This document shows, one piece after another, positions 2,193 to 18,091 of a stretch of 20,484 bases of DNA. The stretch covers positions 1 to 20,484 of IMG/VR virus record IMGVR_UViG_3300045999_001041, one strand, 5' to 3'. Both the position numbers and the translations under genes were made by a program. Numbering within the stretch: the first letter of the stretch is position 1; every line of letters starts with the position of its first letter. The DNA is from a virus. The notes under the pieces were generated by a model. That model saw nothing but the letters and a program-made list of their open reading frames with translations, did no database searches and was not told the origin of the DNA.

Positions 2193-3364
2193 GTTTGTTC
2201 AGGCCAGAGAAACGAGCGTTGCCCACAAGCATTGACCCCAATCAGATCACGGCTCGTCCCGTCTTCGGAAACTACTCCGGCGAGATCGTTTCAGAGTCCA
2301 CCATCTTCACGAGTAGTGCGTGCGCCTCGGCCATCACTTTGCTCGCAGACAGCGTCGCCACAATGACGTTACATCTCCAGGCAGACAAAGGTGGCCGATG
2401 GGCGAACCTGCCTACTCCGAGCGTCTTCAAGCGACCCAACGATGACCAGTTGATGTTCGAGTTCGTACAGCAGACGGTCGCCACGCTTGCCATCTATGGG
2501 GTTGCGTATTGGTGGGCGCCGATGCGTGGCATCTATCCGCTAGAACTGCGCAACATCCATCCGAATAAAGTCCAGGTCAAGGTGGATGACGATGGACAGA
2601 TGTTGTATCAGATCGGGCGTGAAACCTACGACTCAAGCACCATCCGTCGCATCAGTTGGATGCGACTACCTGCACAAGCGCAGGGCATCGCACCGATGGA
2701 CGCACTCCGCAACATCATCGGTACAGACATTGCCATCAACAGGTTCCTGTCCGCTTGGTACGGAGATGGTGGAACACCTGGAAGCGTCCTAGAAACAGAC
2801 GGACAACTCACCGCCGAGCAAGCACAGGTTCTGCGTGACACATGGGTAGACACGCACTACAAGCGTCGCCGTCCTGCCGTGCTGACAGGTGGCCTCAAGT
2901 GGAAGCCAATCACAGCAAGCGCATCAGACATGGACACGATGGCCCATCGTGAACAGATCGTGCGTGAGATTGCACGCTTCTATCGCATCCCGTTGCATCT
3001 CATCCTCGGGACAGGTGGAGACTCGCAGACGTATCAGAACGTCGAATCGGCCGGCATCATCTTCGTGCGACACACGCTGTTGCCCTGGATGCGCAGGCTA
3101 GAAGATGCCTTCAGCGACCTCGTTCCTGCCAATCAGCGCTTGCACTTCAACGCCGACGAGTTCATGCGTGCAGACCTGGCAACCCGAGTGCGTTCCGCAC
3201 AAATTCAGATCGCAAGCGGGATGCTCACACCGAACGAGGCACGCCACATTGAGAACAGAGAGCCGTACGAAGGTGGCGACAGGTTCGTGCTGAACCTTCC
3301 TGGCGCACCGATGGCAGGCTCAGGAGATATGCCATTCCTCGGTGAAGATGCGGAGAAAGAATGA
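2189..3364 (+). CDS. portal protein, HK97 family
   Basis: The 391-residue protein should form the dodecameric ring at one capsid vertex through which DNA passes. It shows family features: an N-terminal SSACASAITLLADSVATM helix (about residues 42-59), PLELRNIHPNKVQV (112-125), the stretch GDGGTPGSVLETDG (193-206), and the stem and clip segment with EQIVREIARFYRIPLHLIL (254-272) followed by a GGDSQTYQNVES motif. This last part is the classic HK97-type portal signature. GAGG lies seven bases before the ATG. It overlaps the upstream small membrane-protein gene and the downstream 87-aa gene by four bases each, so the three are probably translated in a coupled fashion. Confidence 0.95.
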   Translation: MSLFRPEKRALPTSIDPNQITARPVFGNYSGEIVSESTIFTSSACASAITLLADSVATMTLHLQADKGGRWANLPTPSVFKRPNDDQLMFEFVQQTVATLAIYGVAYWWAPMRGIYPLELRNIHPNKVQVKVDDDGQMLYQIGRETYDSSTIRRISWMRLPAQAQGIAPMDALRNIIGTDIAINRFLSAWYGDGGTPGSVLETDGQLTAEQAQVLRDTWVDTHYKRRRPAVLTGGLKWKPITASASDMDTMAHREQIVREIARFYRIPLHLILGTGGDSQTYQNVESAGIIFVRHTLLPWMRRLEDAFSDLVPANQRLHFNADEFMRADLATRVRSAQIQIASGMLTPNEARHIENREPYEGGDRFVLNLPGAPMAGSGDMPFLGEDAEKE

Positions 3365-3624
3365 AAGCCTACAAAGTCACAGTTACAGACACGGCAACTT
3401 TGCTCGTATCTGCCGACAACATCAATCGCCCTGTTTGGTTGCACAACAACACGAACGAAACGCTCTACATCGGTGGTTCTGATGTGTCTGTCGCACAGGG
3501 GTTGCCAATCGTGAAGCATTCAGCGCCATTGGCAGGTGGCCTCGGCCCTGGAGACACGCTTTACGGCATCGCAGAAGCAGGCAAGAGCATCGACGTCCGC
3601 ATCATTATCCCACCTGTTGATTGA
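3361..3624 (+). CDS. 87-aa beta-rich protein of the head operon
   Basis: The product is short, without a signal peptide or membrane segment, and alternates hydrophobic and polar residues (TATLLVSADN, VWLHNNTNETLYIGG, SIDVRIIIPP), predicting a small beta-sandwich. The gene starts in an ATGA overlap with the portal gene behind a GGAGAAAGA ribosome-binding site and ends one base before the protease start. Small beta proteins of this kind in head operons can be capsid decoration or neck accessory proteins, but I recognise no specific family. It is a real gene by spacing and coding pattern; its role is unassigned. Confidence 0.75.
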   Translation: MKAYKVTVTDTATLLVSADNINRPVWLHNNTNETLYIGGSDVSVAQGLPIVKHSAPLAGGLGPGDTLYGIAEAGKSIDVRIIIPPVD

Positions 3625-3625
3625 G

Positions 3626-4843
3626 ATGCCCTACGGAATCAGCGATAAACAGTCTGACTGCACAGGTTGGGCGACCGTCAAGATCAACGCTGACGGGAGC
3701 GCAGAAACTGTTGCGTGCCACGACACAAAGCAGGATGCCATCGATCAGGCAGTCGCCATCTCTATTGCAGAAGATAGTGAGATGGTTGGTGAAGTTCGGC
3801 AGGTGAGGCTCGCGCCTCCGCAGTTCATGCGAGAAGCTGCGAGAAAGGGCTTGCGACTGCATGAAGAGGGATACTCGGGCGATGGACTGCAACCGCAGAC
3901 CGTTGAAGATGCACGGAAGATGGCTTCAGGAAGCGTGTCAGAAGCCAAGTGGCGTAAGATCGGGCCTTGGATAGCACGACACATGATTGACTTAGATGCT
4001 GTCGAAGGCGACACAATCACCGCAGGCTATGTTGCGCATCTCCTGTGGGGTAGCGATGGAACGAAATCCGGCGCAAGGAGAACGATGGAATACGCAGAGA
4101 ACATCGTCGAACAACTCGATGAAGAACGACAGATGATCTACATCGAAGAACCATCAGACATGGTGGAAGGCGAAGGCGAGCCGGAGATGGAAGCGGAAGA
4201 CGAGCATGGAGACAGCCTCCATGTTGAGGTCGAAGCCCATGTTTGCATCCCTAAGTCGTGGGTTATCACGGAACGCAATAATCGGAGCGTTGCGTACACG
4301 ACGCTTGAGATGCGTGCAAAGCCCGAGGGAAGCACACTCGTTGGATACGCTGCGATCTTCGATTCACCGAGCGAGCCGTTGCCGTGGACGGAGTTCGTCC
4401 GGCGTGGCGCATTCCGCAAGACCATCAAGGATGGCGCTGATGTGCGTCTTCTGATCGACCACGAAGGTGTCCCGTTGGCACGAACACGCTCCGGCACCCT
4501 CACGCTGGAAGAGGACGACTACGGACTGCGCATTGAAGCGCAGTTGGATGAGGACAACCCTGACGCACGCAAGATCATGTCGGCCCTCCGTCGTGGCGAT
4601 ATCAGCCAAATGAGTTTCGCTTTCGAGACGGTCAAGGATTCTTGGAGTACTGACAAGCGAACACGGGAACTCCGTGAAGTCAAACTGTTTGATGTGAGCG
4701 TCGTGACTTACCCTGCCTATGAGGAGACGGTCGCAGAGTTGCGTTCACGCACTAGCACGCAGGCTGATACAGTCCTGCCGACGACAGCGAGAAACCTGCG
4801 TAAACGGCAGATCGAACTGTTGCAACTGCGAGCCGGTCACTAG
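3626..4843 (+). CDS. prohead protease (HK97/U35 type) with two N-terminal extra modules
   Basis: The 405-residue protein is about twice the length of a simple HK97 prohead protease. Residues 6-50 (CTGWATVKI ... CHDTKQDAIDQAVAI) form a short domain. Residues 62-165 form a helical domain with GLRLHEEGYSGDGL, TVEDARKMASG, WIARHMIDLDA and VAHLLWGSD. An acidic linker follows (about 170-205). The protease core spans residues 225-370, with GYAAIFDSPSE (240-250), the likely catalytic His279 in LIDHEG and Ser330 in SQMSFAF. It would cleave the delta domain of the capsid protein during maturation. I start at ATG 3626, just after the upstream stop, because the frame further upstream overlaps the 87-aa gene. 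The weak TTGAG site suggests coupling to the gene before it. Confidence 0.9.
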   Translation: MPYGISDKQSDCTGWATVKINADGSAETVACHDTKQDAIDQAVAISIAEDSEMVGEVRQVRLAPPQFMREAARKGLRLHEEGYSGDGLQPQTVEDARKMASGSVSEAKWRKIGPWIARHMIDLDAVEGDTITAGYVAHLLWGSDGTKSGARRTMEYAENIVEQLDEERQMIYIEEPSDMVEGEGEPEMEAEDEHGDSLHVEVEAHVCIPKSWVITERNNRSVAYTTLEMRAKPEGSTLVGYAAIFDSPSEPLPWTEFVRRGAFRKTIKDGADVRLLIDHEGVPLARTRSGTLTLEEDDYGLRIEAQLDEDNPDARKIMSALRRGDISQMSFAFETVKDSWSTDKRTRELREVKLFDVSVVTYPAYEETVAELRSRTSTQADTVLPTTARNLRKRQIELLQLRAGH

Positions 4844-4860
4844 CCGACACAGTCACTAGC
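4836..4860 (+). repeat. short direct repeat before the capsid gene
   Basis: The nonamer GTCACTAGC occurs at 4836-4844 and again at 4852-4860, across the end of the protease gene and the start of the 65-base gap before the capsid gene. No convincing -35/-10 pair is seen in this gap. The repeat could be a regulatory site or chance. Confidence 0.3.
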
Positions 4861-4908
4861 AAGATCACTCGGTCAAACAAGTCCACAACGAACAAAGGGA
4901 ATAAACCA

Positions 4909-6192
4909 ATGTCCATGTCCGAGAAACTCATCGAGAAGCGTTCCGCTCTGCTCGCTGAGGCGCAGGAAATCGTGTCGCTTGCAGAAGCCGAGGGCCGAGA
5001 TCTGACCGCCGAGGAAGACGAGAAGATCGCCACTTCGCTCCGTAGCGCATCCGAGTTGGATGACACCATCAAGGTGCATCAGGAACTCGAAGCCCGAAGC
5101 AAGGAAGCGCAGGAAGTGCGCAAGAACACGGCAGTCGTGTCGGTCAAGAGCGAGGCTCGCACCTACGAGAAGCACTCGTCGAACAACTTCCTTGCTGACG
5201 CATTCGCTGCTCAGTTCAACGGCGACTTTGAGGCTCGTGAGCGCCTCGCTCGCCACATGAACGAAGAGCGTGTGGAGCGTCGTGACGTCACGAGCGCCAA
5301 CTTTGCTGGACTCGTCGTCCCGCAGTACCTGACCGATCTCGCGGCTCCGCTTGCTCGTGCAGGTCGTCCGGTTGCAGACGCTGCTCGGAAGCATCCGCTC
5401 CCGGCTCAGGGTCTGACCATCAGCATCTCTAAGGTCACCACCGGAACCTCGACTGCTTCGCAGACCGAAGGTGCTTCGGTGTCGGAGACCAACATGGATG
5501 ACACCAAGTTGGACATTTCGATCGGGACCATCGCCGGTCAGCAGACGGTTTCCCGTCAGGCTCTTGAGCGTGGAACTGGCGTGGACATGATCGTGATGAA
5601 CGACCTCATCGCTTCGTACCACACGACGCTGGACTCGGCTGTTGTTGCCGAACTCCTGGCTTCGGCTGGACAGTCGGTGACCTACACCGATGCCTCGCCG
5701 TCGGTTGCCGAGTTGTATCCGAAGTTGATGGATGCGATTCAGAAGGTGCAGACCACTTTCTACGCAGGACCGAACGTGATCATCATGCATCCTCGCCGTT
5801 TGGCGTTCATCATGTCGGCGCTTGATACGACCAACCGTCCGTTGGTTGTTCCGGCTCCTCGCAACATGAATGGCGTTGCTTCCGGCAATGGAGCGGTTGT
5901 CTATGGCAACAGCGGATACGAGATCGCCGGTTTGCCGGTTATCACGGATGCCAATGTCTCCATCGCACAAGGCGCTGGAACCAACGAAGACACCATCTTC
6001 ATCGGCAACCTGCAGGAACTTCACCTGTGGGAGGATGCAGGTTCACCGATGTTCCTGCGTTTCGATCAGCCGAAGGCTGCGGAACTTGACGTGCTCGCTG
6101 TTGTCTACGGATACAGCGCTTACACGGCGAATCGCTACCCGAACGCTTGGGCGAAGATTGGTGGAACCGGACTGGTCACTCCGACCTTCTGA
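4909..6192 (+). CDS. major capsid protein, HK97 fold
   Basis: The 427-residue protein builds the icosahedral shell. Residues 1-80 are a charged, coiled-coil scaffolding (delta) region (EKLIEKRSALLAEAQEIVSL and onward) expected to be removed by the upstream protease. The mature part shows the HK97-type features: GLVVPQYLTDLAAPL (about 129-143), an E-loop region with TISISKVTTGTSTASQTEGA, then the P-domain and A-domain segments IMHPRRLAFIMSALD (295-309) and the C-terminal LRFDQPKAAELDVLAVVYGYSAY. A strong AAAGGGA lies eight bases before the ATG; a second ATG two codons later is a minor alternative. Codons here are more C/G-ended than in neighbouring genes, consistent with very high expression. 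A strong terminator follows. Confidence 0.96.
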   Translation: MSMSEKLIEKRSALLAEAQEIVSLAEAEGRDLTAEEDEKIATSLRSASELDDTIKVHQELEARSKEAQEVRKNTAVVSVKSEARTYEKHSSNNFLADAFAAQFNGDFEARERLARHMNEERVERRDVTSANFAGLVVPQYLTDLAAPLARAGRPVADAARKHPLPAQGLTISISKVTTGTSTASQTEGASVSETNMDDTKLDISIGTIAGQQTVSRQALERGTGVDMIVMNDLIASYHTTLDSAVVAELLASAGQSVTYTDASPSVAELYPKLMDAIQKVQTTFYAGPNVIIMHPRRLAFIMSALDTTNRPLVVPAPRNMNGVASGNGAVVYGNSGYEIAGLPVITDANVSIAQGAGTNEDTIFIGNLQELHLWEDAGSPMFLRFDQPKAAELDVLAVVYGYSAYTANRYPNAWAKIGGTGLVTPTF

Positions 6193-6202
6193 TCCGTCTA
6201 GG

Positions 6203-6249
6203 ATGGGGTCAGGTGCGATATCCCGTTTGGGCGCACCTGGCCCCATTTT
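6203..6249 (+). terminator. rho-independent terminator after the capsid gene
   Basis: Bases 6203-6217 (ATGGGGTCAGGTGCG) pair with 6232-6246 over 15 base pairs with a single G-U wobble, and a CCC/GGG mini-stem forms inside the loop. TTTT follows at 6246-6249. This is a classic intrinsic terminator, placed 10 bases after the capsid stop. It probably limits read-through so that capsid protein outnumbers downstream neck proteins. Confidence 0.85.
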
Positions 6250-6264
6250 CATTGGAGACACCAC

Positions 6265-6471
6265 ATGGAAGACAACGCAAAGTTGATCAGCGCATTGCAG
6301 GACGAGCGTCGTGGATACGTCGCACGCAATCTGCATGATCGTGTCAAGGCAGTAGATGAACAGTTGCGCTTGCTTGGCGTTGGAAGCAAGCGTGAGACTA
6401 CGACAGCGGAGCCGGCAGAAGAGCGTGCTGTCGTAGAAGCACCGAAGAAGCGCATCGCTAAGCGAGACTGA
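6265..6471 (+). CDS. 68-aa charged protein after the capsid gene
   Basis: The product opens with a helical, charged segment (ALQDERRGYVARNLHDRVKAVDEQLRLL written in two parts: residues 10-22 and 23-37) and ends with a Lys/Arg-rich tail (APKKRIAKRD). There is no membrane segment. GGAG precedes the ATG by seven to eight bases, and the stop lies two bases before the adaptor gene. Small helical proteins of this sort often sit directly downstream of the capsid gene in actinophages; their function is not established. No fold or partner can be named from sequence. Confidence 0.75.
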   Translation: MEDNAKLISALQDERRGYVARNLHDRVKAVDEQLRLLGVGSKRETTTAEPAEERAVVEAPKKRIAKRD

Positions 6472-6473
6472 CG

Positions 6474-7076
6474 ATGGCGATCACCAACGGTTACTGCACG
6501 TTGGCAGATGTGAAGTCAGCGCTTCGCTTGACTGACAACACAGACGACGCTCTTATTGAGAACGCTATTGAAGGCGCATCTCGCCGGATTGATGGTTACT
6601 GCGGTCGGTTCTTCTATCAGACCGCACAGACTGCCATCACGATGTATCCGTTTGATTCGTACAACCAGCCTGTTGAGAACGACATTTCTACGACAAGCGT
6701 TACTGTCAAGACTGATGACAATGGCGATGGCGTGTTTGAAACGACCTGGACGCAGGGAGTGGACTACCAACTGGAGCCACTCAATGCCACGTTGCAGGGA
6801 CGACCGTACCGAAGGATCGTCGCCATTGGTGGCAAGACCTTCCCGTTGCAGTACGTTCCCAACCGTCCGCTCGTCCAGGTGACAGCGCAATGGGGTTGGG
6901 CAAGCATCCCTGACGATGTGCGTGAAGCGTGCATCCTGCTTGCGATGCGTGGCTTTGCACGTCTAAATGCTGCTCTTGGGGTTGTAGGCTTTGCGGACAT
7001 GGCGATTCAGGTGCGTGCAGTCGATCCTGATGTGCGTGACCTGCTGAATCCGTACAAGATCATTGGGATTGCCTGA
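6474..7076 (+). CDS. head-tail adaptor (HK97 gp6-like connector)
   Basis: The 200-residue protein should form the ring that docks below the portal. The N-terminal part is typical: YCTLADVKSALRLTD followed by DDALIENAIEGASRRIDGYCGRFF split across residues 23-47, the helical pair that defines the gp6-like family. A beta-rich insertion (TSVTVKTDDNGDGVFETTW and following) is followed by VQVTAQWGWASIPDDVREA (about 134-152) and a C-terminal helix, again as in family members. Its position, second after the capsid gene, fits. It ends in a TGATG overlap with the next gene. Confidence 0.88.
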   Translation: MAITNGYCTLADVKSALRLTDNTDDALIENAIEGASRRIDGYCGRFFYQTAQTAITMYPFDSYNQPVENDISTTSVTVKTDDNGDGVFETTWTQGVDYQLEPLNATLQGRPYRRIVAIGGKTFPLQYVPNRPLVQVTAQWGWASIPDDVREACILLAMRGFARLNAALGVVGFADMAIQVRAVDPDVRDLLNPYKIIGIA

Positions 7077-13646: not shown

Positions 13647-14054
13647 ATGGCGACCTACCCTCTTTCCCAAGCGTATGCGGACGGTGATGTTCTTTCCGCT
13701 GCAAACATCAACAGCATTACTGATGGCGTGAACGATATTGCGTTCGCTGTTTTCAACAATCAAGTTGGTACGACGTACACGCTTGCCTTGACAGATGTGG
13801 CGCAGATAGTGACACTCAACAATGCGTCTGCCATCACGCTGACCGTGCCACCTAATGCAAGCGTCGCATTTCCTATCGGAACGCAAATCGTTTTGACGCA
13901 GTTTGGCGCTGGACAGGTGACGATTGCACCTGGCGCAGGTGTGACTCTCCGCTCGTTCGGTTCTGCACTCAAGATCGCAGGGCAATGGGGGGTCGCAACT
14001 TGCGTCAAGACGGATACAAACACCTGGCTTGTCTTCGGTAACCTCTCGTCGTGA
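13647..14054 (+). CDS. small beta-rich tail tip protein
   Basis: The 135-residue product starts behind GGAG five bases after the hub gene. The N-terminus MATYPLSQAYADGDVLSAAN with following INSITDGVN is a typical attachment segment of phage tip proteins. The remainder has the pattern GTTYTLALTDVAQIVTLNNA, SAITLTVPPNASVAFPIGTQ and VLTQFGAGQVTIAPGAGVTL, a beta domain that recurs in phage tail fibres, ending in WGVATCVKTDTNTWLVFGNL. It probably trimerises at the tip or links the three following tip proteins. Its stop overlaps the next GTG start by four bases. Confidence 0.75.
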   Translation: MATYPLSQAYADGDVLSAANINSITDGVNDIAFAVFNNQVGTTYTLALTDVAQIVTLNNASAITLTVPPNASVAFPIGTQIVLTQFGAGQVTIAPGAGVTLRSFGSALKIAGQWGVATCVKTDTNTWLVFGNLSS

Positions 14055-14668
14055 TCCTTGCATCTCGCTACGGTTCAGTTGCGGATTCGCTTGTTTCCGC
14101 AGCAGGAGACTTCGTTCAGATCGTTCCGACTTCAGTTGGCGTGACTGGCACTTCAGGGACGATCAACTCAAATGGCACAGTCATCCTCAACTCGGTGACT
14201 TACTTTGCGATCAACGGATGTTTTTCATCGACATACAGAAACTATTTCGTACAGATCGAATGGCAATGGACATTTGCAGGTTCAACAAGCACTAACTGGC
14301 GTCTCCGCAAGGCCGGGGTAGATAGGACAAATGCCAACGGATATTGGGAATGGCTTTATGAAAGTGGTGGGCGTGGCGCAATGCAAACAGCGACTAACAC
14401 CAACGCAGGTTTTGTTCCTTTCGCTGGCAACAACCTACGAAATGCATTCCACATGACGTTCTTCAACCCATTTGATAACACAGGTGCAACTGGTGGATGC
14501 TTTGTGAGAAACAGGATGGCAACAACATTTTCTAGTGGTCGCCCTGCTGAAGTCCACGATACGGCAAGCATTTGCAATGGTGGGTCAGATACCCATGATG
14601 GGTTCTCCTTTGGCTCTTGGAGTAATGCTTTGAGTGGTCAAGTGGCAATCTACGGGTTCAAGGACTGA
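14051..14668 (+). CDS. tail tip/fibre protein, paralog 1 of 3
   Basis: The 205-residue product begins at GTG in a GTGA overlap. After a short leader it shows VPTSVGVTGTSGTINSNGTV (about 25-44), then FAINGCFSSTYRNYFVQIEW, and ends SGQVAIYGFKD. The same frame of residues is found in the next two genes (PTSV...G..TI..NG.V...NG.F...Y ... YG). The region between is divergent, with NPFDNTGATGGCFVRNRM and DTHDGFSFGSW. The pattern predicts a jelly-roll-like beta-sandwich, so a receptor-binding or fibre role is likely. AAGGA coding for the final Lys-Asp serves as ribosome-binding site of the next gene. No named family is recognised. Confidence 0.7.
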   Translation: MILASRYGSVADSLVSAAGDFVQIVPTSVGVTGTSGTINSNGTVILNSVTYFAINGCFSSTYRNYFVQIEWQWTFAGSTSTNWRLRKAGVDRTNANGYWEWLYESGGRGAMQTATNTNAGFVPFAGNNLRNAFHMTFFNPFDNTGATGGCFVRNRMATTFSSGRPAEVHDTASICNGGSDTHDGFSFGSWSNALSGQVAIYGFKD

Positions 14669-14670
14669 CC

Positions 14671-15210
14671 ATGAGCGGATTAGTACAAGTCAAGCCAACA
14701 AGCGTCACAACATCCGGTACTGCAACCATTGGGACTAACGGGACAGTCACATTCTCCGGCGCAACGCACTTCACCTTCAACGGCATTTTCAATGCGACGT
14801 ATCGCAAGTATGCTTTCTATTGCGAATACAACACAGCAATCGCATCTGAACTCTATTGCGATCTTTCGTTGAACGGCACTCCAACAGGAAGCGCAACTGG
14901 CTACAACTATTCCTATCTTGACTATCGAACGACCTCATTTGATTCGGGTTCTGTTGCGAACATCCCTATCATCGCCAAGACAGGAAACTTGAGCCAAGAT
15001 CAAGCGTTTGTAATGATTGTGACTGGACCTTTCCTCGCTGGGCCAACCGTTGCACGATCGGACTTTTCGTGTATGTACGCCTCCGCTAACCCTATTTGGT
15101 GCGGGAATAGAGTTTGGCATCACACATTGACCACTTCATACAACGGCTTGCAGATTTATGGAGCGAGCAACTGGTCGGGCCGACTTCAGATTTACGGATT
15201 CAAGGAATAG
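14671..15210 (+). CDS. tail tip/fibre protein, paralog 2 of 3
   Basis: The 179-residue product shares the frame of its neighbours: VKPTSVTTSGTATIGTNGTV (about 7-26), FTFNGIFNATYRKYAFYCEY, and the end NWSGRLQIYGFKE. It starts two bases after the previous stop behind AAGGA. Its middle part has SYLDYRTTSFDSGSVANIPI and NPIWCGNRVWHHT, which differ from both paralogs. The shared ends with a variable centre suggest a conserved attachment/packing scaffold with different binding surfaces. The role in host recognition is inferred from location and pattern. Confidence 0.7.
   Translation: MSGLVQVKPTSVTTSGTATIGTNGTVTFSGATHFTFNGIFNATYRKYAFYCEYNTAIASELYCDLSLNGTPTGSATGYNYSYLDYRTTSFDSGSVANIPIIAKTGNLSQDQAFVMIVTGPFLAGPTVARSDFSCMYASANPIWCGNRVWHHTLTTSYNGLQIYGASNWSGRLQIYGFKE
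14691..14711 (+). repeat. 21-bp near-direct repeat, copy 1
   Basis: This 21-base segment, coding for the conserved Lys-Pro-Thr-Ser-Val-Thr-Thr motif of paralog 2, matches 15230-15250 of paralog 3 at 19 of 21 positions. The DNA-level identity is higher than elsewhere in the two genes and could support recombination between them. Confidence 0.7.
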
Positions 15211-15212
15211 AT

Positions 15213-15743
15213 ATGGCCCTCAACTTGTGCAAGCCAACAAGCGTTACGACAGGTGGCGGGTCAGCCACAATCAGTACCAATGGGAGCGTCCGTTTCGCAG
15301 GTGCGAGTAGCGTTTCACTCAATGGAGTCTTCAAATCTGACTTCCAGTTCTACAAGATCCTATTCCGCACAGAAGCGATCACTTCTGCTGGGAGCATTGT
15401 TGCCTCTCTCCGCAAGAGTGGCACAGACAACACGAGCAGTTACTTGAGTCAAATCGCCAACATCAACGGAACATCATTGAGCACCTTCAACACGACTGCG
15501 TACAATGGCGCATTCATAAATAACTGCTATGGAACTTGGGCAGGTGCTGCGGAGATAGATGTGTTCAGCCCGTTCATTTCAAAGCCGACGACATTCATTG
15601 TGCGTAATGTGAGCGATCAGAACTACGCATCGCTTTACGAAGGTGGAACACGGCATGGGGTCACAGACACATTTGATGGAATCACATTCGCCAAAGGGAC
15701 ATCTATGACCGGATGGGTCGCTGTCTATGGACTTTCACAATAG
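15213..15743 (+). CDS. tail tip/fibre protein, paralog 3 of 3
   Basis: The 176-residue product starts at ATG 15213, two bases after the previous stop, behind AAGGA; the frame is open further upstream but that part lies inside paralog 2. It shows CKPTSVTTGGGSATISTNGS (about 6-25), then SLNGVFKSDFQFYKILF and an end TGWVAVYGLSQ. Its middle has VRNVSDQNYASLYEGGTRHG and VTDTFDGITFAKG. DTFDGITF resembles DTHDGFSF of paralog 1, so these two share part of the C-terminal half. A receptor-binding role is inferred. Confidence 0.7.
   Translation: MALNLCKPTSVTTGGGSATISTNGSVRFAGASSVSLNGVFKSDFQFYKILFRTEAITSAGSIVASLRKSGTDNTSSYLSQIANINGTSLSTFNTTAYNGAFINNCYGTWAGAAEIDVFSPFISKPTTFIVRNVSDQNYASLYEGGTRHGVTDTFDGITFAKGTSMTGWVAVYGLSQ
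15230..15250 (+). repeat. 21-bp near-direct repeat, copy 2
   Basis: This is the partner of 14691-14711, differing at two positions (the 16th and 19th base). It encodes the conserved motif at the start of paralog 3. Confidence 0.7.
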
Positions 15744-15752
15744 GAGAACATC

Positions 15753-15977
15753 ATGACGTTTACGATCAAGACTTACTACGCAGATGGAACGATGGAAGAA
15801 CGTGATGCGACACCTGAAGAGGTTGCAGAACGTGATGCACAGATCGCGCAGATCGAACAGGCTGACCGTGAAGTGCAGGCACAGATGGAAGCGAAGCAAG
15901 CAGCGAGGCAAGCAGGAATCCAAAGGTTGATGGAACTTGGCCTCACGGAAGAACAAGCGCTCGCTATCGCAGGCTAG
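15753..15977 (+). CDS. 74-aa coiled-coil protein (tail accessory-like)
   Basis: The product reads MTFTIKTYYADGTMEERDAT, then a charged helix with DAQIAQIEQADREVQAQMEA, and closes RLMELGLTEEQALAIAG. This form (short beta N-terminus, coiled coil, LGLTEEQ ending) is common in small phage proteins found next to tail-fibre genes, sometimes annotated as tail-fibre assembly-like. GGAG lies seven bases before the ATG. Its 3' end overlaps the start of the secreted lectin-like protein by 41 bases if the TTG start there is right. Function is inferred from context only. Confidence 0.75.
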   Translation: MTFTIKTYYADGTMEERDATPEEVAERDAQIAQIEQADREVQAQMEAKQAARQAGIQRLMELGLTEEQALAIAG

Positions 15978-16977
15978 ATCGCAGCTTCTGATCTTCGCTC
16001 CTGTGGCAGGGCTTGCCCTGTTTGGCAATGTTGCGACAGCAGAACCGAGCGTGCAGTTAGGGCAAGCATGGGAAGGCCATGTGCTTCAGATGGCCCTGCC
16101 AGATGGTTTCGTGTTCACGGATGTGCTGTTCGCTTCCTACGGCTTGCCGAGCGAGTTCACGCTGAATCCTGCGTGCCATGCGTCTACGTCCGTCAGCGTC
16201 GTTTCTAGCGTCGCTGTAGGACAGCAGGCATTCACGCTTGATGCCACCAACGGCAGGTTCATGGAAGACCCCTGTCCTGGCGTTTACAAGCACTTGCAGG
16301 TTGTGCTTGCCGTCGGGCCAGTAGAGACCACAACATCTAGTACCGAAGCGCCGACGACCACAACATCTAGTGTGCCAACGACCGAAGTATCAACAACGGT
16401 AGATCAGCCAACAACCACAGAAGCCCTGCCGATAGAAGAGACAACGACTGTGCCAGTACCAAGCACAGAAACCATCCCACAACCAGTCTTCTCAACGCCG
16501 AGCCTCACTTCTACTTCTGTTGCGACTACTGTTCCCGAGGCTACAACCATTCCTGCTACGACGGAGGTGGCGACCACATGGCCCCAACCAACGGCATCTA
16601 CGACTGCGACCATCACGCCATTGCCTTCAACAACGCTGTCACCTACATCCACACAGGCAGAGGCCACAACGACGACCGAGCCTGCGCCGACCACGACACC
16701 GACCACGACAGAACCACCAACGAACCTGATAGTTGATTCTGTATTCGATTTCGATACATCAGAACTCACGCAGTCTGATATCGACCTGCTGATTGAGCAG
16801 GTGCAGGATGCGCCGGAGGAAGTACGGCAGGAGTTTGAGGCGCAGGTAGACCTCTATTCAGGCCAGTTTGATTCCTATGTGCCACTAGGTTCCAGCATCC
16901 CTGTCGGCGCTCGGCGTGTGGTGATCGCTGTGTCAGTAGCGACAACCCTGCCAGTTGCCCGACGCCGAAGCGTTTGA
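15937..16977 (+). CDS. secreted lectin-like protein with Thr-rich linker
   Basis: The frame gives 346 residues from TTG 15937. Residues 1-35 form a signal peptide: basic start (RKNKRSLSQAR), hydrophobic core LLIFAPVAGLALFG, and a cleavage site after NVATA. Residues 36-128 resemble an SUEL/rhamnose-binding lectin domain: a G-F-V-F-x-D-V-L-F-A-S-Y-G segment (57-69), NPACHASTSVSVV (77-89) and ATNGRFMEDPCPGVYKHLQV (103-122), corresponding to the family's 'N..FGDPC.G..K.L.V' core, with only two cysteines (80 and 113). Residues about 130-262 are a Thr/Pro/Ser linker. Residues 263-346 form an acidic helical domain ending in an Arg-flanked hydrophobic stretch (VVIAVSVATTLPVA). The TTG start overlaps the previous gene and has a weak ribosome-binding site, but it yields a complete signal peptide. 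It may bind glycans at the host surface or on virions; role not established. Confidence 0.7.
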   Translation: MASRKNKRSLSQARSQLLIFAPVAGLALFGNVATAEPSVQLGQAWEGHVLQMALPDGFVFTDVLFASYGLPSEFTLNPACHASTSVSVVSSVAVGQQAFTLDATNGRFMEDPCPGVYKHLQVVLAVGPVETTTSSTEAPTTTTSSVPTTEVSTTVDQPTTTEALPIEETTTVPVPSTETIPQPVFSTPSLTSTSVATTVPEATTIPATTEVATTWPQPTASTTATITPLPSTTLSPTSTQAEATTTTEPAPTTTPTTTEPPTNLIVDSVFDFDTSELTQSDIDLLIEQVQDAPEEVRQEFEAQVDLYSGQFDSYVPLGSSIPVGARRVVIAVSVATTLPVARRRSV

Positions 16978-17004: not shown

Positions 17005-17178
17005 ATGTTTCCCATGCCGAAGTTGTCTGATGTTTCAGGTTTGGCGTGGACGCTCGTAGGTACTGGCCTCGTGCTGATCACGCTGACTGGTGATACTCGG
17101 CGTTGGGGTTTGATCATGGCAGGAGCCGGATTGATCATCAACATCATTGCTTTGTTTGGCGATAGGGAATCAGAATGA
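17005..17178 (+). CDS. 57-aa two-TM protein, holin candidate
   Basis: A short ORF opens MFPMPKLSDVSGLAWTLVGT and holds two hydrophobic segments (about residues 12-27 and 34-51) separated by a charged turn GDTRRWG, then a short acidic tail (GDRESE). This is a class II holin-like or accessory membrane topology. It ends in an ATGA overlap with the next lysis gene, which supports it as real. The ATG has no strong ribosome-binding site; ATG 17014 is an alternative. It could be a holin, antiholin or accessory protein. Confidence 0.65.
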   Translation: MFPMPKLSDVSGLAWTLVGTGLVLITLTGDTRRWGLIMAGAGLIINIIALFGDRESE

Positions 17179-17402
17179 AGAGCGTCGCATTCAGGGTCTT
17201 TGCTGTCTTCGGTTATTCAGCAATGTCAATCATCGGTGGTGCATCAGTACTTGGTGGCATCCCTGTTTGGAAGGCTGCGATCCTCGCCGGCATCGCATCA
17301 ACATCACAGGTGATTGAGAAGTTGGCTCGTGCCTACGCAGACGACGGCAAGATCGACAAGCAGGAACTGGACACCATCTTCAAGAACGCAGGCAAGGAGT
17401 AA
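17175..17402 (+). CDS. holin, r1t-like
   Basis: The 75-residue product has an N-terminal basic residue pair, one or two hydrophobic segments (VFAVFGYSAMSIIGGASVLG and VWKAAILAGIASTS), then LARAYADDGKIDKQELDTIF. The motif 'LARAY.DDGK...EL...F' after the membrane part is characteristic of r1t-type holins of actinophages. It would form membrane lesions to release the endolysin encoded directly downstream. GGGA precedes the ATG. It overlaps the previous gene by four bases and lies two bases before the endolysin start. Confidence 0.8.
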   Translation: MKSVAFRVFAVFGYSAMSIIGGASVLGGIPVWKAAILAGIASTSQVIEKLARAYADDGKIDKQELDTIFKNAGKE

Positions 17403-17404
17403 AC

Positions 17405-17893
17405 GTGCGTCCGTACACAGGCAACAGCGATCCCTCTAGCAAGCCTCGTGCAGGCACGAAGCGCTTTCAGGACATGATCTGCTTCCTCTTCGGGATGCGG
17501 AATCTAGGGATCTATGCGAATCGTCCCGTCCGTGGTGGTAGCGGTCTGAGTGTTCATGCGACCTGGAGGGCGATGGACACAGGTGGCACAGCGAAGCAAT
17601 GCAAGGAACTGATCAACTTCCTTTATCAGTATCGTGATCGTTTGCTCATCGAAGAGTTGCACGACTATCAGAACAACTGGATTCCTGGCAAGGGCTTCGG
17701 TGCTGGATACAGGTGCGACCGTGACAATGGTGGCGTTGCATCAGGCTGGAAGGTCTACGAGAAGAACACCATCGGGCCAGGTGGCGCTTGGGTTCACACG
17801 GAGATCGCACCTGCGATGGCAGACGACCCGGCAAAGGTGGATGCTGTGTTCAAGGAGATCCTTGACGAGATCGCTCAGGCGCTCAAAGGGTGA
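17405..17893 (+). CDS. endolysin, M15-like peptidase
   Basis: The 162-residue protein starts at GTG 17405. It shows LSVHATWRAMD with His51 and Asp58 seven residues apart, and WVHTE with His131. These match the zinc ligands of M15 peptidases (VanX/VanY-type, S-x-H-x6-D ... H). The acidic residue normally three positions before the last His is Ala128 here; Glu133 follows two positions after. The domain fills nearly the whole protein, with no separate wall-binding domain and no signal peptide, so export needs the holin. Location between holin and a membrane protein supports a peptidoglycan-cleaving lysis role. Cleavage of peptide cross-bridges is expected, but substrate is inferred. Confidence 0.75.
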   Translation: MRPYTGNSDPSSKPRAGTKRFQDMICFLFGMRNLGIYANRPVRGGSGLSVHATWRAMDTGGTAKQCKELINFLYQYRDRLLIEELHDYQNNWIPGKGFGAGYRCDRDNGGVASGWKVYEKNTIGPGGAWVHTEIAPAMADDPAKVDAVFKEILDEIAQALKG

Positions 17894-17896
17894 GTC

Positions 17897-18091
17897 ATGG
17901 CCGAAGGCATCATCGTCGCTGTGATCGGTCTGATTGGGGTTGTGTTGGCTTCGCTGATACAAACCACACGGAAAGAGAACAAGACTGATCACGCACAGGT
18001 GATGAACGCTGTGGTGCGCATTGAGCAGAAGATTGATACGCACATCAATGATCATGCTCGAGCATCATTGGAGAATCAGAACGAAAGGTGA
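17897..18091 (+). CDS. TM plus coiled-coil protein of the lysis cassette (DUF2746-like)
   Basis: The 64-residue product starts behind AAAGGGTGAG. It has a single membrane helix at the N-terminus (IIVAVIGLIGVVLASLI), then a charged TTRKENKTDHAQVMNAVVRI and EQKIDTHINDHARA, a helix repeating His/Asp residues. This resembles small mycobacteriophage proteins (DUF2746) placed next to holin and endolysin genes. It may act as a holin, an antiholin, or a membrane partner. It is the last gene of the late operon; its stop lies inside the inverted repeat at 18087-18128. Confidence 0.75.
   Translation: MAEGIIVAVIGLIGVVLASLIQTTRKENKTDHAQVMNAVVRIEQKIDTHINDHARASLENQNER

Follow-up and report, generated by a model that had tools for sequence, protein, structure and literature searches.

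The window analysed here, a 20,484-nucleotide stretch of DNA from a virus of lake-type actinobacteria, carries a gene (gene A) whose product bears a SUEL-type lectin head with a conserved sugar site. The gene heads a syntenic cassette with holin-like and putative endolysin genes, is fused in a subset of relatives to its small neighbour, gene B, and has its head swapped for unrelated domains in related phages. The conserved export signal, the glycan-binding heads, the membrane partner and the position in the lysis cassette make it very probable that A is a late surface-acting protein. Our best full reading, which we advance tentatively, is that A is an exported, membrane-tethered lectin, the first gene of an A-B-C-endolysin cassette, and that it aids envelope disruption and release. 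Across several hundred contigs of uncultured phages, the cassette places holin-like and endolysin genes beside a surface lectin whose heads are exchanged in the manner of receptor-binding tips. That the stalk and partner genes are kept while the head is exchanged suggests that ending an infection involves, in these viruses, an overlooked component that acts at the surface.

Table 1. Features of gene A and the adjoining genes in the window
Feature	Position	Strand	Basis
Gene A, predicted exported SUEL-lectin stalk protein, 346 aa; TTG start, TGA stop	15937..16977	+	
Signal peptide, residues 1-35; K/R-rich n-region, LLIFAPVAGLALFGNVATA followed by EP	15937..16041	+	sequence, hydropathy, conservation in relatives
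SUEL lectin head, residues 36-128	16042..16320	+	profile and fold matches
Thr/Pro-rich stalk, residues 129-260	16321..16716	+	composition
Conserved acidic C-terminal module, ending YVPLGS-IPV-RR-hydrophobic-RRR	16717..16974	+	about 400 viral relatives
Gene B, 57-aa two-TM protein, in the frame of A past its stop	17005..17178	+	hydrophobicity, relatives, phrog_29041
Gene C, 75-aa two-TM holin-like protein	17175..17402	+	size, two hydrophobic segments, position; phrog_26427
Gene D, putative M15-type endolysin (SVHATWRAMD...WVHTE)	17405..17893	+	motif and position only
Gene E, 64-aa one-TM protein	17897..18091	+	

The lectin head, export signal and stalk of gene A

The open reading frame and the motifs on which the original prediction of a SUEL lectin was based were all recovered, with FASYG at residues 65-69, CHASTSVSVV and NGRFMEDPCPGVYKHLQV present in the translation. 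In a six-frame search, PF02140 matched the head with 33.4 bits (E=1e-9; cut-off 31.4) and had matches in 0 of 14 control genomes, while hmmscan of the whole A protein gave 30.1 bits, slightly below the same cut-off. Pfam was therefore borderline, and profile and fold searches against the PDB were decisive. A profile of six phage sequences matched the rhamnose-binding lectin 5h4s (4.9e-42), the Flavobacterium gliding adhesin RemA (8gl6_D, 2.5e-21) and CSL3 (4.2e-15). The AF2 model of the head (pLDDT 86.1, pTM 0.79) found 14 PDB matches with E <0.001 in Foldseek; ranks 1-14 were all SUEL, RBL or latrophilin-type lectin domains, and the first unrelated match after them had E=0.22. These profile and fold matches rule out a chance or weak motif resemblance to SUEL, and we firmly assign the head, by homology and predicted fold, to the SUEL-type lectin domains.

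The primary sugar contacts of CSL3 are Glu7, Tyr27, Asn74, Asp79, Gly83 and Lys86 (PMC3269628). Their counterparts in A are E46, Y68, N105, D111, G115 and K118, which are invariant in the six phage domains (alignment A4); the Asn74-Lys86 numbering was set by the HMMER alignment, and Glu7 and Tyr27 were positioned by motif. A thus shares fold, profile and the Glu, Tyr, Asn, Asp, Gly and Lys of the primary sugar site with the SUEL/RBL family (PF02140; CSL3, SUL-I and the latrophilin lectin domain), but differs from it in having a single domain rather than tandem ones and FMEDPC in place of F-GDPC, a one-residue insertion between the sugar-site Asn and Asp that is also found in the nearest relative, L163. 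The expectation that animal members have more cysteines was correct: A has just two, C80 and C113, and its phage relatives in A4 likewise have only the two aligned Cys, whereas the four-disulfide feature of animal RBL domains (PMC3269628) is absent from A.

RemA, whose SUEL domain is of the bacterial type, has FASYGTP...CHA...DPC in common with A. It is a large surface adhesin of Bacteroidota; A, in contrast, is encoded by a phage and combines a Thr stalk with an actinobacterial anchor. SUEL domains in phages have precedent, since two proteins of uncultured Caudovirales phages (A0A6J5NGG5 and A0A6J5PD65; TM 0.88) are already named for it in databases; their annotation gives the domain name only, with no cassette and no head swapping. 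In the literature searched, which had limited coverage and few subscription papers, we found no description of phage SUEL lectins or of PA14 in lysis cassettes, nor of the A-B-C cassette with head exchange.

The TTG start of gene A sits within the 3′ end of the preceding gene. Its frame is closed upstream by a TGA at 15928, leaving TTG 15937 as the sole usual start codon 5′ of the signal peptide. The signal peptide itself is conserved, with 85% identity over 20 aa in L164 and similar sequences in L163, L081 and L082. L163 shows the same arrangement, having only TTG-type starts that overlap its upstream gene. Translation starting downstream of the signal sequence, which would have undone the predicted export, is therefore unlikely. 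Among the matches listed, an N-terminal hydrophobic segment was present in 173 of 178 complete A-family proteins, compared with 239 of 1057 other (control) ORFs.

Past the head, the linker predicted to be Thr/Pro-rich and about 130 residues long comprises 132 residues, including 50 Thr and 20 Pro, and the acidic C-terminus does end in an Arg-flanked hydrophobic stretch (RR-hydrophobic-RRR). This C-terminal, or juxtamembrane (JM), module is conserved in about 400 viral matches. The relatives were recovered with alignments, after single-sequence scans with full A or its C-terminus had given no matches in viral or genome contigs. The hydrophobic stretch is short, with about 14 residues, one Pro and a KD value of 1.39 over 17, so A may not itself span the membrane; in L163 it scores below threshold. 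A may either cross the membrane or be held there by B.

The lysis cassette and the A-B fusion

The genes that follow A are tightly packed: the stop of B overlaps the start of C (ATGA), and D begins two bases past C. The identification of C as holin and D as endolysin is putative, from size, TM count, motif and position. Endolysin profile searches of the window's gene D protein gave no match, and a VanY (PF02557) endolysin occupies the D position in the relatives L061 and L063. The family of gene C, phrog_26427, is labelled "nuclease" in PHROGs, a label that looks wrong for proteins of 75-90 aa with two hydrophobic segments that adjoin lysis genes. A promoter and terminator scan of the window found such sites to be no commoner than in shuffled sequence. 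The late-region site predicted for A, between tail and lysis genes, is supported.

The arrangement recurs in relatives, as judged from samples, capped at 80 loci per scan, among the matches listed rather than from a full census, a scope that also applies to the N-terminal segment counts given above. Where the flank was long enough to judge, B lies within 600 nt of A for 119 of 125 non-redundant unfused A genes, and within 600 nt of all 40 of the second-type A genes described below (both among the matches listed). When loci were fetched by the A module alone, without C, 56 of 73 unfused loci among the matches listed had a C gene within 2.5 kb; fused A is linked more loosely to C (28/47, among the matches listed). 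Conversely, of the 60 loci to which C alone led among the matches listed, 42 have A upstream, and the 18 others, without a recognised A, suggest that A is dispensable in some phages.

Two layouts occur among the relatives: A and B are either fused, or split with A ending shortly before B. The 944-aa hypothetical protein WJZ48438 of Actinomycetia phage DSL-LC01 (OQ999401.1) holds a JM module and a two-TM C-terminus in one protein; the former matches the end of A and the latter matches B. Unlike the window's arrangement, it is a fused A-B with a non-SUEL head and does not directly adjoin the annotated endolysin. There are 47 non-redundant A-B fusions among the matches listed, a sign that A and B act together. 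In the window, the TGA at 16975-16977 could have been a nonsense mutation or a readthrough site within one A-B protein, which the relatives rule out: in about 20 of them A ends at this point, by TGA or TAA, and B has a start of its own, often in a different frame.

Head exchange and the distribution of the anchor

The heads found on the shared stalk and cassette include SUEL, PA14, PPC-like, CBM-like and legume lectin. The PA14 heads score 31.8 bits in Pfam (cut-off 24) and match RsgI3 at 4e-29, and the PPC-like head scores 25.7 bits against a cut-off of 25.9. The CBM-like beta-sandwich head (AF2 86.8) matches CBM35, CBM61 and CBM29 in Foldseek with E <0.001 and TM of about 0.45, distant fold matches from which we only tentatively call it carbohydrate-binding.

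Heads change while their surroundings stay. Compared with the window, L164 is 90% identical in C, 74% in B, 81% in D and 70% in one tail protein, and its head is unrelated, while L163 has a SUEL head 56% identical to that of the window. On a tree of JM, B and C, at least 13 head changes are required, where the minimum is 5. In L081 (4105-5451) and L082 (3065-4417), JM, B and C are identical and the heads unrelated, PA14 in the former and CBM-like in the latter. These two are perhaps alleles within one population, though for this pair taken alone a chimeric assembly is possible. The SUEL head of the window is also 54% identical to that of the fused protein of L024, despite tails of different layouts, which is consistent with domain shuffling. 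That L024 protein (3196-6681) is a 1162-aa phage protein that combines a legume-type lectin (PF18483, 5.7e-43), SUEL and a fused A-B C-terminus.

A diverged second version of the cassette came from SUEL-guided loci, so its SUEL heads are there by construction. It has a signal peptide, one or more heads, a P/S-rich or helical stalk and a C-terminal module ADMSPEEREEATKTVVATVV...RR, followed by a B-like gene (hhalign probability to B: 96.4) and often by a C-like gene. It was seen in L251, L253, L256, L259, L264, L267, L271, L294 and L322, apparently different actinophages.

The JM module is not purely viral, as it was found in 7 of 395 Acidimicrobiia genomes, where it makes up the C-terminal portion of surface proteins that have a stalk and a DUF4082, RCC1 or other head. 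In 5 of these 7, the reading frame extends to a two-TM C-terminus. The genes around them look like ordinary chromosomal genes. A phylum-wide genome sample yielded only two genomes with the module, both already among the 7, and gene C was found in 0 of the 395 Acidimicrobiia genomes. The chromosomal proteins of L243-L249 combine an RCC1 or DUF4082 head with a Thr stalk and the anchor found in A, an arrangement that appears to be an uncharacterised architecture for surface display in bacteria. Mycobacteriophages such as Bipper have major capsid proteins 35-36% identical to that of the window, which fits an actinobacterial phage, and the host is likely of the Acidimicrobiia type.

Possible roles of the lectin protein

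In the mechanism we propose, Sec would export A late from the infected actinobacterial cell, and outside it the SUEL head on its long Thr/Pro stalk may bind an envelope glycan of rhamnose- or galactose-like geometry, and the conserved C-terminal module together with the two-TM partner B would keep A at the membrane. Encoded first in the putative A-B-C-endolysin lysis cassette, A would engage the glycan layer left by holin and endolysin and could help to dismantle the envelope and release progeny at lysis, in a LysZ- or spanin-like manner, with the head as an exchangeable glycan-binding module matched to host surface sugars. Lysis of actinobacteria by phages is poorly understood, and many cassettes contain unexplained TM genes (PMC13056207). 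The same paper describes LysZ of corynephages CL31 and Cog as a protein of 177 aa with one TM and N-in C-out topology that acts on lipoarabinomannan; envelope glycans are its proposed target, and its deletion gives small plaques that are rescued in glycan-deficient hosts (PMC13056207). Compared with LysZ by this description, A also lies in the lysis cassette of an actinobacterial phage, but in place of a single N-in C-out TM it has an N-terminal signal of cleavable type, an anchor at the C-terminus and folded lectin domains as heads, with the opposite topology.

The position of A inside the lysis cassette points to lysis at least as much as to adsorption or the blocking of other phages, both of which the original prediction had suggested. 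A lysis role alone, however, gives no explanation for the frequent head swapping. Repeated swapping is what an arms race would give if A coated the infected cell or lysis debris so that incoming phages or the virus's own progeny could not attach, its heads tracking changing receptors; the late position, an exported and putatively glycan-binding head, and the two head types on the identical backbone of L081 and L082 fit such masking as well. Yet exclusion is usually early and needs no tight linkage to holin and endolysin, and the receptor matching to be expected, a head domain that recurs in tail genes of the phage carrying it, was not found: PA14 gave a single match per record in 21 of 21 positives, and SUEL one match per phage record tested, none in tail genes. 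We regard surface masking as rather unlikely, and the analogy with LysZ leaves an accessory role in lysis slightly favoured over it.

Of the earlier alternatives, carried on virions or exported, export is far more strongly supported, by the conserved Sec-type signal, the basic/hydrophobic C-terminus, the two-TM partner and the chromosomal anchor, and the virion part found no support. A protein that decorates the tail or capsid and binds host or environmental glycans during adsorption might well be encoded just downstream of tail genes and have heads resembling those of adhesins. But A keeps a signal peptide, which is not a feature of tail fibres or virion adhesins, its C-terminus comes with a membrane partner gene, the same anchor occurs on chromosomal surface proteins, and a structural-protein profile search of A gave no match, so we consider a virion protein very improbable. 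The shared architecture of head, stalk, JM and two TMs on Acidimicrobiia chromosomes, there with DUF4082 or RCC1 heads, is instead what would be seen if A were a late moron beside the lysis genes that replaces or imitates stalked proteins of the host, against grazers or in aggregation or cell contacts. We think such mimicry improbable, given that the architecture occurs in just 7 of 395 genomes and that B and C are conserved beside A across many phages and in the diverged second version, beyond what a moron would lead one to expect.

Returning to the lysis role, it is conceivable, if short of probable, that these loci represent a widespread, undescribed lysis component of actinophages, in which an exported stalk with an exchangeable head (SUEL, PA14, PPC-like, CBM-like or legume lectin) and a two-TM partner act on host-specific envelope glycans; host range would then have a glycan determinant at lysis as well as at adsorption. 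Should the heads bind sugars of the host envelope, head identity could help in predicting hosts for phages that infect uncultured Acidimicrobiia and related lineages. Both A and B are small genes that lend themselves to direct testing.

Elsewhere in the window, the tail region upstream of A contains three tandem paralogous genes (14051-14668, 14671-15210 and 15213-15743, all on the + strand), which are 28-29% identical to one another over nearly their full length.
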